This document shows, in pieces, positions 22,040 to 59,537 of a stretch of 64,000 nucleotides of DNA (the stretch's first letter is position 1; each line of letters opens with the position of its first letter). Under the pieces are notes generated by a model, which did no database searches, was not told where the DNA came from, and saw only the letters and a program-made list of their open reading frames with translations. The DNA lies in NCBI RefSeq assembly GCF_000143885.2, contig NC_018581.1, forward strand, positions 2,666,001-2,730,000, in the 5' to 3' direction. Source of the DNA: Gordonia sp. KTR9 (GTDB lineage: Bacteria > Actinomycetota > Actinomycetes > Mycobacteriales > Mycobacteriaceae). The translations under genes and the position numbers were made by a program.

Positions 22040-22490
22040 TGGCCCGCCCTGCTCCCTGAGGAGCGCCCGGAGCTTGCGGAGGGCGCGTCACGAAGGGTCT
22101 GGCGACCGAGGCTGCGAAACCCTTCGTGACGCTCGCAAGCTCGCTCCTCAGGGAGCGGGGGTCTTTCGTGGTCCACGACGGCCGCCAGGCCGCAGATACT
22201 GAGGTGCGAGGAGCGGATTCGACGAACTCCCCGCTCCCTGAGGTGCGAGGAGCGCATTCGACGAACGCCCCGTTCCCTGAGGTGCGAGGAGCGCAAGCGA
22301 CGAGCCACGAAGGGCGTGGCGACGCATCTCACCAGGACCCTTCGAGACGGCCTCCGCAGGCTCCGGCCTCCTCAGGGAGCAGTAGGCGGCGCGCTCGCTC
22401 GCACCTGAGGGGCAGGGGTGGCTGGCTTCGCTCGCACCTGAGGGTCAGTGGGTGGCTGGCTTCGCCCGCACCTCAGAAAGCAGAGGGCGT
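22040..22490. repeat. Composite repeat island: cruciform plus 39-bp tandem units and inverted copies
   Basis: This fills most of the only gene-free stretch over 300 bases (21985-22492), between convergent hisG and thioesterase genes. Left part: gctccctgaggagcg (22051-22065) is the reverse complement of 22142-22156, and inside it gcgtcacgaagggt (22085-22098) pairs with 22119-22132. Middle: tgaggtgcgaggagcg recurs at 22200, 22239 and 22278, an exact 39-bp period. Right: ctcgcacctga-type inverted copies start at 22398, 22431 and 22465, and tcctcagggagc (22369-22380) mirrors the left edge. A near-identical unit occurs inside cobN. No transposase or credible protein gene is present. Confidence 0.85.
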
Positions 22491-55447: not shown

Positions 55448-55575
55448 GCCGTAGGCTGAACGCACCGCGAGCGGGCTGAAGCCGGTGCGATTCCGGCGCG
55501 GTCGCGCCACTGTGATCGGGGGCCGGGATCGACCGGCCATCCGGGAGTCAGACCAGTCCCTCGCACTGCACCCGC
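55448..55575 (+). promoter_or_regulatory. Cobalamin riboswitch upstream of cobN
   Basis: The conserved core is readable: gaagccggtgcgattccgg (55479-55497), the B12 box cgccactgtga (55504-55514), and the 3' part gggagtcagaccagtccc (55543-55560), framed by short complementary arms. Adenosylcobalamin binding in this class usually hides the ribosome site and lowers expression. A small stem ccggg/cccgg (55597-55601, 55610-55614) lies just before the cobN ribosome site cgaggagacacg, consistent with translational control. Edges are approximate. Confidence 0.85.
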
Positions 55576-55626: not shown

Positions 55627-58600
55627 ATGATCCTGCTGCTCTCGACCTCGGACACCGATCTGCTCACGGCCTCCGCCGCCCACGACCCGGAACCCGGTTC
55701 AGCACTTGCCCCGGTCGCGTACCGCGGGGCCAACCCGTCGCGCATCCTGGTCGAGGACATCCCGGGACTCGCCGCCGACGTCGACCTCATCGTCGTGCGC
55801 ATCCTGGGCGGCGTGCGCGCCTGGGAGGACGGGCTCGCCGCGGTCGAGGCGACCGGCAAGCCGCTCGTCGTGTGTTCCGGTGAGCAACAGCCCGACCCCG
55901 ATCTGATGGCGCACTCGACCGTGCCCTCCGGCGTCGCCGCGCAGGCACACGACTACCTCGCCGCGGGCGGCGTCGCCAACATGGTGAACCTGCACCACTT
56001 CCTGTCCGACACCGTCCTGCTCACCGGCAACGGCTTCGAACTCCCGCAGCAGACCCCCGCCTGGGGCGTGCTGAAACGGACGCCTTCTCCGCTCCCTGAG
56101 GTGCGAGGAGCGCACGCCGAGTCTTTACTGCTCCCTGAGGTGCGAGGAGCGCACGCCGAGGCTTCTCCGCTCCCTGAGGTGCGAGGAGCGCACGCCGAGT
56201 CTTTACTGCTCCCTGAGGTGCGAGGAGCGCTAGCGACGAGCCACGAAGGGCCCGCCGACGCCCCCACGATCGCGGTCCTCTACTACCGCGCCCAGCACCT
56301 CGCGGGGAACACGCGCTACATCGCCGCCCTGTGTGACGCCATCGAGGCGAAGGGTGCCCGCGCGCTGCCGATCTTCTGCGCGTCGCTGCGGACCGCACCC
56401 GACGATCTCCTCGAACTGCTCGGCACCGCCGACGCGCTCGTGGTCACGGTGCTGGCCGCCGGTGGCGCCACCCCGGCCACCGCATCGGCCGGCGGCGACG
56501 ACGAGGCGTGGAACATCGAACGACTGGCCGCCCTCGACGTCCCCATCCTGCAGGGTCTCTGCCTCACCGGTTCCCGCGCGGACTGGGAGGACAGCGACGA
56601 CGGCCTGTCGCCACTCGACGTCGCGACCCAGGTGGCGGTGCCCGAGTTCGACGGCCGCATCATCACCGTGCCGTTCTCGTTCAAGGAGTTCGACGACGAC
56701 GGACTGCCCTGGTACCAGCCGGATCTCGAGCGCTGCGCACGGGTGGCGGGTATCGCCATCGCGCACGCCCGGTTGCGGCGGACGCCGGCCGCGGACAAGC
56801 GCGTCGCGGTCATGCTGTCGGCCTACCCGACCAAGCATGCCCGGATCGGCAACGCCGTCGGCCTCGACACCCCGCGCAGCCTGCTGCGCCTGCTCGCCGC
56901 GATGCGCGAGGCCGGATACGACATCGGGCCCGAGTCCGGACCGGAAGCGATTCCCGGTCTCGCAGAGGATGATTCGGATGCGCTGATTCATCAGATCATC
57001 GCCACGGGCGGCCAGGATGCGGACTGGCTCACCGAGGAGACCCTCGCGGCCAACCCGATCCGTCTGTCGGCGCGGGATTATCGGGCGTGGTTCGACACCC
57101 TGCCCGAGGGACTGCGCACGGCGGTCACCGAGCACTGGGGACCCGCACCCGGTGAGCTGTTCGTCGACCGCACCCACAATCCCGACGGCGACATCGTGAT
57201 CGCGGCACTGACCTTCGGCAACATCGCGATCATGGTGCAGCCGCCGCGCGGATTCGGCGAGAACCCGGTGGCGATCTATCACGACCCCGATCTGCCGCCG
57301 TCGCATCACTATCTGGCCTCGTACCGGTGGCTCGCCGCCCACGACACCGGCTTCGGCGCCGATGCGATCGTGCACGTCGGCAAACACGGCAACCTGGAGT
57401 GGTTGCCCGGCAAGAACCTCGGCATGTCGGCGGACTGCGGCACCGACGCCGCTCTCGGCGACCTCCCGCTCGTCTACCCGTTCCTGGTGAACGACCCGGG
57501 GGAGGGGACGCAGGCCAAACGACGTGCACACGCAGTTCTCGTCGACCACCTGATCCCGCCGATGGCGCGCGCCGAGTCCTACGGCGACATCGCCCGCCTG
57601 GAACAGCTGCTCGACGAACACGCCAACATCTCCGCGCTCGACCCGGCGAAGCTACCGGCGATCCGCCAGCAGATCTGGACGCTCCTGACCGCGGCCAAGA
57701 TGGATTCCGACCTCGGGCTCACCGAACGGCCCGACGAAGAGGTCTTCGACGACATGCTGCTGCACGTCGACGGCTGGCTGTGCGAGATCAAGGACGTGCA
57801 GATCCGCGACGGACTGCACGTGCTCGGCGAGCCCCCGCGCGACGACGCCGAGGTCGACCTGGTCCTGGCGATGCTGCGCGCACGCCAGCTCTGGGGCGGC
57901 ACGTCGGCCCTGCCCGGCCTGCGCGAGGCCCTCGGCCTCGTCGAGGACGGCTCGGCCGAGCGGAGTTCCGTCGACGCCGTGGAGGCCCAGGCCCGCGAAC
58001 TCGTCGCCGCGTGCGCCAAGGACGACTGGTCGGCGGCATCCGTCGCCGCGGCCACTGCGGGACTACCCGTGGCGGTCGGGGACGTGCTCACGTTCGCGGC
58101 CACCGAGGTCGTGCCGCGCCTGCGTCAGACGACCGGCGAGGTCCCGCGCGTGCTGCACGCCCTGGACGGTGGGTTCATCCCGGCCGGACCGAGCGGCTCC
58201 CCGCTGCGCGGCCTGATCAACGTGCTGCCCACCGGACGCAACTTCTACTCCGTGGACCCGAAGGCGGTGCCCTCGCGGCTGGCGTGGGAGACCGGCCGGG
58301 CGATGGCCGACTCGCTGCTCGAGCGCTACCTCACCGATCACGGCGAGTACCCCGCATCGGTGGGCCTCTCGGTGTGGGGCACCAGCGCGATGCGCACGTC
58401 CGGTGACGACGTCGCCGAGGTGCTCGCGCTGCTCGGGGTCATGCCCGTGTGGGACGAGATGTCCCGGCGCGTCTCCTCGCTGGAGCTGATCGGCCTCGAG
58501 GAACTGGGCCGCCCCCGCATCGATGTGACAGTCCGCATCTCCGGCTTCTTCCGGGACGCCTTCCCGCACGTCGTCACGATGCTCGACGACGCGGTCGCGC

Positions 58601-59439
58601 TCGCCGCGGCGGCCGAGGACGAGTCCGACGAGCAGAACTTCGTCGCCGCCCATGTGCGCGCCTCGATGTCCGACCACGGCGACCGGCGACGCGCCGTGAC
58701 GCGCGTGTTCGGATCCAAGCCCGGCACCTACGGCGCCGGGATCCTGCAGCTCATCGACTCCCGGGACTGGCGCAGCGACGAGGACCTGGCACGGGTCTAC
58801 ACCGAGTGGGGCGGTTACGCCTACGGACGTGACCTCGACGGTGTGCCCGCGGTCGACGACATGCGCGCCGCCTACAAGCGGATCGCCGTGGCGGCGAAGA
58901 ACACCGACACCCGCGAGCACGACATCGCCGACTCCGATGACTACTTCCAGTACCACGGCGGCATGGTGGCAACGGTGCGCGCACTCACCGGCAAGTCGCC
59001 CGAGGCGTACATCGGAGACAGCACCCGGCCCGACTCCGTCCGCACCCGGACGCTGTCGGAGGAGACCAGTCGTGTGTTCCGCGCCCGCGTCGTCAATCCG
59101 CGTTGGATCTCGGCGATGCAGCGGCACGGGTACAAGGGCGCCTTCGAGATGGCGGCGACGGTCGACTACCTCTTCGGCTACGACGCGACCACCGACGTCG
59201 TCGCCGACTGGATGTACGAGAAGCTCACCGAGTCCTATGTCCTGGACGAGACCAACCAGCAGTTCATGCAGCAGTCCAACCCCTGGGCGCTGCACGGTAT
59301 CGCCGAACGGCTGCTCGAGGCCGTCGAGCGCGATATGTGGCGCGAACCCCCGGCCGAGCTGCTCGACGCCCTGCGCAACGTCTACCTGCAGACCGAGGGC
59401 GACATCGAGGGCCGCGGCGAGGACGTCTCTGCCGGCTGA
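55627..59439 (+). CDS. cobN: Cobaltochelatase subunit CobN, with an in-frame repeat insertion
   Basis: The large subunit of the ATP-dependent cobalt chelatase of the aerobic pathway. 1270 residues from ATG 55627. Characteristic parts include PTIAVLYYRAQHLAGNTRY, CLTGSRADWEDSDDGLSPLD, VHVGKHGNLEWLPGKNLG, PFLVNDPGEGTQAKRRAH and VFGSKPGTYGAGILQLID. After WGVLKRT (about residue 152) a foreign-looking 59-residue stretch with four PEVRGA copies interrupts the usual sequence, which resumes at APTIAVLYY. It keeps the frame, so the protein may still work. The stop codon sits in a 22-bp tandem repeat. Expression is probably repressed by cobalamin through the upstream riboswitch. Confidence 0.94.
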   Translation: MILLLSTSDTDLLTASAAHDPEPGSALAPVAYRGANPSRILVEDIPGLAADVDLIVVRILGGVRAWEDGLAAVEATGKPLVVCSGEQQPDPDLMAHSTVPSGVAAQAHDYLAAGGVANMVNLHHFLSDTVLLTGNGFELPQQTPAWGVLKRTPSPLPEVRGAHAESLLLPEVRGAHAEASPLPEVRGAHAESLLLPEVRGALATSHEGPADAPTIAVLYYRAQHLAGNTRYIAALCDAIEAKGARALPIFCASLRTAPDDLLELLGTADALVVTVLAAGGATPATASAGGDDEAWNIERLAALDVPILQGLCLTGSRADWEDSDDGLSPLDVATQVAVPEFDGRIITVPFSFKEFDDDGLPWYQPDLERCARVAGIAIAHARLRRTPAADKRVAVMLSAYPTKHARIGNAVGLDTPRSLLRLLAAMREAGYDIGPESGPEAIPGLAEDDSDALIHQIIATGGQDADWLTEETLAANPIRLSARDYRAWFDTLPEGLRTAVTEHWGPAPGELFVDRTHNPDGDIVIAALTFGNIAIMVQPPRGFGENPVAIYHDPDLPPSHHYLASYRWLAAHDTGFGADAIVHVGKHGNLEWLPGKNLGMSADCGTDAALGDLPLVYPFLVNDPGEGTQAKRRAHAVLVDHLIPPMARAESYGDIARLEQLLDEHANISALDPAKLPAIRQQIWTLLTAAKMDSDLGLTERPDEEVFDDMLLHVDGWLCEIKDVQIRDGLHVLGEPPRDDAEVDLVLAMLRARQLWGGTSALPGLREALGLVEDGSAERSSVDAVEAQARELVAACAKDDWSAASVAAATAGLPVAVGDVLTFAATEVVPRLRQTTGEVPRVLHALDGGFIPAGPSGSPLRGLINVLPTGRNFYSVDPKAVPSRLAWETGRAMADSLLERYLTDHGEYPASVGLSVWGTSAMRTSGDDVAEVLALLGVMPVWDEMSRRVSSLELIGLEELGRPRIDVTVRISGFFRDAFPHVVTMLDDAVALAAAAEDESDEQNFVAAHVRASMSDHGDRRRAVTRVFGSKPGTYGAGILQLIDSRDWRSDEDLARVYTEWGGYAYGRDLDGVPAVDDMRAAYKRIAVAAKNTDTREHDIADSDDYFQYHGGMVATVRALTGKSPEAYIGDSTRPDSVRTRTLSEETSRVFRARVVNPRWISAMQRHGYKGAFEMAATVDYLFGYDATTDVVADWMYEKLTESYVLDETNQQFMQQSNPWALHGIAERLLEAVERDMWREPPAELLDALRNVYLQTEGDIEGRGEDVSAG
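56091..56250 (+). repeat. 39-bp tandem repeat array inside cobN
   Basis: gctccctgaggtgcgaggag begins at 56091, 56130, 56169 and 56208, an exact 39-base (13-codon) period. The spacers alternate between gagtctttact and gaggcttctcc types. The last unit ends with cgacgagccacgaaggg, as does the unit at 22278-22312 in the hisG-downstream island. In the cobN frame each unit encodes LPEVRGAHAE. Array length keeps the reading frame open. Confidence 0.92.
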
Positions 59440-59537
59440 GTTCGTTCCCTGTGCCGGCTGAGCCTCCTTCCGGTGCCGGCTGAGCTCGTTTCCGGTGCCG
59501 GCTGAGCCGCCTTCCGCTGGTTGAGCTTGTCGAAACC
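59431..59537. repeat. 22-bp tandem repeat over the cobN stop, plus a GGTTGAGC element
   Basis: gccggctgag recurs at 59431, 59453, 59475 and 59497, an exact 22-bp period with variable second halves. The cobN TGA (59437-59439) lies in the first unit, and the other units repeat it downstream. At 59519-59537 ggttgagcttgtcgaaacc follows, a 19-mer I remember as a common dispersed element in actinobacterial genomes (not verified). The remaining gap to fxsA (59632) holds nothing else recognisable. Confidence 0.8.

Follow-up and report, generated by a model that had tools for sequence, protein, structure and literature searches.

A short dispersed repeat read in frame within a loop of the cobaltochelatase subunit CobN in Gordonia

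The cobN locus and its in-frame array

The window analyzed here is the whole 64,000-nucleotide stretch of the Gordonia sp. KTR9 genome. It contains cobN, which follows a cobalamin riboswitch and features an in-frame array of a short repeat (Table 1). CobN scores 1113.5 bits against TIGR02257, where the cut-off is 822, and 1334 bits against PF02514. The first-pass annotation described four copies of a 39-bp unit inside cobN that are read as PEVRGA, and this is confirmed by one intact ORF and by TRF, which gives a period of 39 with 3.6 copies at positions 56091-56230 and a period of 78 at 100% at positions 56084-56230. The array had been placed at 56091 to 56250. The end holds; the start, however, is really at about 56084, and the last copy runs out to a complete element of 40 nt, CCCTGAGGTGCGAGGAGCGCTAGCGACGAGCCACGAAGGG. 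Over 69 nt the two halves of the array, 56084-56152 and 56162-56230, do not differ, which fits a recent duplication. Four matches to the 20-mer CTCCCTGAGGTGCGAGGAGC lie in the array and two more at positions 22234-22292 (one of these with one mismatch), compared to 0.00 in the shuffled window.

Table 1. Features of the window at cobN and at the intergenic array of the same element.
Feature	Position	Strand	Evidence
cobN, cobaltochelatase subunit CobN, 1270 aa	55627..59439	+	ORF, PF02514, TIGR02257, dN/dS
Cobalamin riboswitch just upstream of cobN	55478..55548	+	RF00174, 33.9 bits, gathering score 31.5
In-frame array, four copies of the dispersed element, 39-bp period, peptide (L)PEVRGA repeats	56084..56250	+	
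Complete 40-nt type A element, CCCTGAGG..CGAAGGG, last array copy	56211..56250	+	
Different 22-bp repeat, forms the last cobN codons (SAG) and the TGA stop	59430..59516	+	
Intergenic array of the type A element, complete element at 22275-22314	22199..22314	+	
Sister element type D, 44 nt, ends as type A, covarying stem	22054..22097	+	
Sister element type C, 34 nt, ends as type A	22120..22153	-	

Genomes are referred to below by G-numbers, which designate the Gordonia genomes in a sample of 59 that includes the genome of the window (G000). The 22-bp repeat is also found at the 3' end of cobN in G046, G015, and G022. The cobN genes of G055 and G021 end in GED and GEN, respectively, and both are free of this repeat.

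A dispersed element in Gordonia genomes

The repeat in cobN belongs to a dispersed element, here called type A. With up to two mismatches allowed, a 19-mer core is found at 144 sites of the own genome, and its reversed control has no site; with up to one mismatch the core is present in 18 of the 59 Gordonia genomes, own genome included. An exact 18-mer is counted 104 times, grouped into 67 clusters; since only exact matches enter this census, it leaves out more divergent copies such as the RHS ones described below. Sixty of the 67 clusters are located outside called genes, five are at gene ends, and two are internal, with genes called by a home-made codon-score caller that missed two gene-like ORFs and the bioD gene of G015. 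When the clusters were classed by their neighbors in a second pass, 36 lay between convergent genes, 25 between unidirectional genes, and 1 between divergent genes, and 5 overlapped a gene. The earlier proposal that a mainly intergenic dispersed repeat has become protein-coding thus agrees with the genome-wide copies, which lie mostly outside called genes.

Three sister types, B (33 nt), C (34 nt), and D (44 nt), occur at type A loci and have their ends in common with type A. Repeats are densely packed in the intergenic region at 22054-22480: besides the type A array it contains types C and D as well as other GC-rich repeats built on CACCTGAGGG cores. In the type D stem, 3 of 11 pairs show compensatory change and all 55 cells are paired, and covariation this high was reached in 1 of 500 shuffles, both values being based on 5 distinct sequences. 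The folding of type A is not better than that of shuffles (z of 0.29 as DNA and -0.82 as RNA), which gives no support to a strong hairpin for this type. Evidence for a palindromic nature of the element therefore comes from its ends and from the sister type D. An inverted CCCTGAGG lies within 300 bp in 28 of 62 intergenic clusters, a count taken without a control that carries no evidential weight.

The CobN loop in relatives

The best-ranked CobN relatives among 80 kept loci are from G. lacunae, G. amicalis, G. alkanivorans, and Gordonia sp. 'Campus'. The segment from NLHHFL to AQHL, which spans the array, is 105 residues long in the CobN of the window, 102 in G. lacunae, 91 in 'Campus', and 67 in G. 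amicalis. It is 52 residues long in G. alkanivorans and G. namibiensis, where the element is missing. The net gain is thus about 53 residues rather than the 59 estimated earlier, and the expectation that the flanks of the insert lie nearly adjacent elsewhere proves correct for relatives without the repeat. PEVRGA-type repeats were found in 3 of the 80 named CobN loci (L001, L002, and L004), and in none outside Gordonia, so the alignment with related genera proposed by the first-pass annotation leaves its reading standing. The public CobN of Gordonia sp. ABKF26 also features the element.

A CobN match was obtained in 58 of the 59 Gordonia genomes, and 30 of these loci were fetched; the other 28 do not enter the following counts. 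The element is present in 7 of the 30 fetched loci with 4, 3, 3, 2, 2, 2, and 1 copies, as counted from the peptide, and the reading frame continues through the loop in all 30. The seven occupied loci are spread over two clades; on a CobN tree from an alignment that left out the loop, this distribution needs no fewer than two changes. G035 and G026, relatives of G056 and G005, have an empty site, CCGAAGGGCCGACC, and the copy in cobN of G005 ends in CTCGAAGGGCCGACC. The sequence CGAAGGG is common to the 3' end of the element and the empty cobN target (loops L088, L089, and L090, from G005, G035, and G026, respectively), which may reflect a target preference or may be the remnant of a deletion. 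Sister species thus offer a direct view of the path from insertion to expansion, as their alleles are empty, single-copy, or expanded.

Outside the loop cobN is under purifying selection, with dN/dS values of 0.040-0.081 in seven comparisons. An AlphaFold2 model of CobN residues 1-410, built with 41 aligned sequences, has pLDDT values below 50 at residues 161-202, flanked by strands at 146-148 and 214-220, and the insert is predicted to be a disordered loop. The best PDB match of the model is M. tuberculosis CobN (7c6o), in which the two matched parts are four residues apart.

Other repeats have settled in the same loop. The CobN loop of G019 features two copies of CCTTTCGACAAGCTCAAGG that are read as FRQAQG, and this sequence is found at 104 sites of the G019 genome when up to one mismatch is allowed, but at no site of G000, G018, or G055. 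Four Rhodococcus or Rhodococcoides CobN proteins have HSAGSAPV-type repeats in the loop. The corresponding DNA core has 39, 43, 8, and 14 sites in the respective genomes with reversed controls of 0, five sites in a related genome that has no insert, and none in R. opacus. YPEPVEG, found in the loop of some Nocardia, was considered as a dispersed palindrome and rejected with 2, 2, and 0 matches in three Nocardia genomes.

Other genes that host the element

Type A is also read in genes unrelated to cobN. A 669-aa glycosyltransferase-like membrane protein of the own genome features six in-frame copies; it scores 20.8 bits against PF13231, under the cut-off of 26.1, and has no NCBIfam match. Its relatives contain five copies in G022 and one complete element in G055, and that of G046 contains a type B element whose reading frame is a different one. 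The relative in G035 has no PEVRGA copy. The G015 gene (L176) has an insert of about 1.8 kb at the same place, judged by match coordinates, and this insert contains stop codons. An RHS-repeat protein of 2134 aa with a T7SS signal domain (L217:1921-8322, G000:C2) features three in-frame PEVRGA-type units, and such units are also present in its G056 relative. A public CruF-similar protein, P0004, which is below NCBIfam cut-offs, begins with PEVRGA repeats. An apparent genic element at G000:C2:2750240 was discarded because its 422-aa ORF is a spurious open frame with a codon score of -69.9.

The element lies directly after the P-loop segment of bioD in G026, G056, G005, G022, G015, and G046, and the two BioD proteins tested, from G026 and G056, score above the cut-off of TIGR00347. 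No element follows this segment in bioD of G035, G021, and G029, and match coordinates give no such insert for bioD of the own genome. The pattern used for bioD missed 4 of 12 loci, one of which was regained with a looser pattern. In bioD of G056 and G015 (L224 and L230) the P-loop segment is followed directly by multi-copy arrays, which places them near the active site.

Of 18 regions with a peptide match, 4 were assigned by the gene caller to the interior of a gene, leaving over 30 residues to either side (bioD twice and RHS twice), 6 overlap a gene near an end, and 8 overlap none, although one of these 8, L208 in G015, proved to be bioD. Hosts in relatives were searched for with an LPEVRGA query, so the host set leans toward the LPEVRGA frame.

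Depletion in genes and frame of the genic copies

An unbiased DNA test asked whether the sequences flanking the element both show coding signal in a shared frame. This test returned genic calls for 2 of the 67 G000 clusters and 2 of the 80 G015 clusters, compared to 753 of 1260 random positions in the loci from the own genome (Fisher p 2e-46). The DNA-based census thus comprises 4 genic calls in 147 clusters, with 100 of the 106 G015 copies taken in, and compared with the random positions the element is strongly under-represented in genes. All four unbiased genic calls are on the sense strand in the LPEVRGA frame; they come from three genes, which is too few to build on for a bias in frame or strand.

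The spacings between copies differ between the two settings. Within genes they are multiples of three in 30 of 30 cases (12 arrays in 4 genes), and in intergenic arrays of the own genome they are multiples of three in 12 of 31 cases (17 arrays, 4 of which have only such spacings). The 12 genic arrays are not independent, and the contrast weakens to p 0.012 when each gene contributes a single array and to p 0.03 for the own genome alone.

Origin of the array and alternative explanations

The array probably derives from a REP-like Gordonia repeat that entered the CobN loop in the sense orientation and in frame, grew to four copies, and was tolerated. The 40-nt type A element would bring an open LPEVRGA frame into the loop, and growth to four copies would proceed by tandem duplication, most likely through slippage. 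Spacing would be free outside genes, and inside genes only frame-keeping copies in tolerant places would persist, so the disordered-looking loop would become longer with the enzyme not being destroyed. From its sequence cobN with the array still looks intact. The element is presumably mobile, slippage is the presumed cause of copy-number change, and the insert appears to be nearly neutral for CobN activity. PF01797, the RAYT-type Y1 transposase family, was matched in 0 of the 59 Gordonia genomes, with 5 of 14 control genomes positive in the same search, and mobilization by a RAYT was rejected on this basis.

An assembly artefact or sequencing chimera is extremely improbable. Tandem repeats are prone to mis-assembly, and four copies is the count as assembled; however, seven Gordonia genomes have distinct versions at this place, three loops are letter-identical to those in records named as G. 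lacunae, Gordonia sp. 'Campus', and G. amicalis, and the ABKF26 protein has the element as well. An assembly error, which the first-pass annotation named as an outcome that would overturn its reading, is therefore unlikely for the feature as a whole because other Gordonia genomes differ at the same place. That annotation also raised a contingency-like tract, in which changes in array copy number switch or tune CobN, and hence B12 synthesis, within populations. The tandem array, its near-identical halves, and the species-specific copy numbers are in line with such a locus, but it is very improbable. Every genic spacing observed is a multiple of three, and the element occupies a minority of the fetched CobN loci. 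The 39-bp period is frame-preserving, as stated earlier, so the unit keeps the frame and gives no on/off switch; a B12 switch is unsupported because no observed allele alters the frame. The frame stays open through the loop in all fetched Gordonia loci, and the variation in copy number is between species and in a loop predicted to be disordered, which speaks against this part of the earlier proposal.

A functional PEVRGA tract in CobN, which would serve, for example, as a linker or a binding site and be maintained by peptide-level selection, is considered improbable. The agreement of the four unbiased calls in strand and frame, though five of the six frames of the 43-nt element are open, and the filling of the same loop by other repeat peptides elsewhere would fit such a role. 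However, the unbiased set represents only three independent genes, the remaining hosts came from the LPEVRGA query and are frame-biased, the sister element in the G046 glycosyltransferase-like gene is in another frame, and the loop is short in most relatives and has low predicted order. It is similarly improbable that the CobN loop is a recurrent landing pad for the dispersed repeats of each lineage, with PEVRGA in one Gordonia group, FRQAQG in another Gordonia, and HSAGSAPV in Rhodococcus, and that the repeat-derived tracts of variable length in the cofactor enzymes CobN and BioD, in the latter next to the P-loop, are adjustable linkers that tune activity. Insertion of a REP-like repeat followed by tolerated growth remains the preferred reading.

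Relation to known repeat systems

With 40 nt, 104 exact 18-mers, and 60 of 67 clusters outside genes, the element agrees with the broad description of REPs (20-40 bp, high copy number, mostly intergenic). Passages of PMC3733652 describe REPs as short and mostly intergenic, located between convergent or unidirectional genes with some inside ORFs, and report that grouped intragenic REPs encode 43-82 residues and that two Xanthomonas species have different REPs at about the same recB site. The Gordonia element resembles the intragenic REPs in these passages in being short, mostly intergenic, and partly in ORFs, and in that several repeats occur at one gene site. In contrast to the GTAG/CGTC-tagged REPs of the same passages, it ends in CCCTGAGG and CGAAGGG, and a search of the genus sample, own genome included, gave no match to the RAYT family PF01797. 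The passages of PMC3733652 on tagged REPs do not mention Gordonia.

In-frame insertion into unrelated genes, a hallmark of Rickettsia palindromic elements (RPEs), is found here in cobN, bioD, the glycosyltransferase-like gene, and the RHS gene. Work by Ogata from 2002 is reportedly a source on these elements. Passages of PMC10969869 describe RPEs of about 150 bp in frame in many genes, and a passage of PMC5656822 describes one case of an in-frame RPE. As described there, RPEs and the Gordonia element are alike in being dispersed and fused in frame into unrelated genes, with a peptide that the host protein apparently tolerates. Compared by description, the Gordonia element differs from the RPEs of about 150 bp (PMC10969869) in having 40 nt and in enlarging as a tandem array. 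Repeat change at contingency loci flips the frame or expression on and off, and the genic spacings observed here all keep the frame. The MIRU/VNTR loci of mycobacteria consist of tandem copies, variable in number, of a dispersed actinobacterial repeat, and the array in cobN is similar by this description; MIRU/VNTR repeats are, however, longer and mainly intergenic.

Literature searches on palindromic, REP, or interspersed repeats in Gordonia returned no report of such a case, the REP matches being on unrelated topics as judged by their titles and the opening of their abstracts. Searches on PEVRGA or TTCGACAAGCTCAGG also returned none, the PEVRGA matches being on human peptide and disease topics by title, and among the matches listed for CobN with a tandem repeat or insertion no title indicates such an insert. 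As far as these searches reach, the kind of event is known; new are its occurrence in this genus, the element itself, and the finding that a single CobN loop has been used repeatedly. An actinobacterial case is thereby added to the protein-coding dispersed repeats, with three repeat families settled in one loop of one enzyme. CobN and BioD are direct test cases for the neutrality of such inserts, and the question is raised of what moves repeats in a genus with no detected RAYT transposase.

A longer variant of the element, read as AGPSERRRS..SHEGP, is present in cobN of G015 (L083) and bioD of G022 (L226). Its occurrence in two genes of two species is perhaps that of a nested or composite form.
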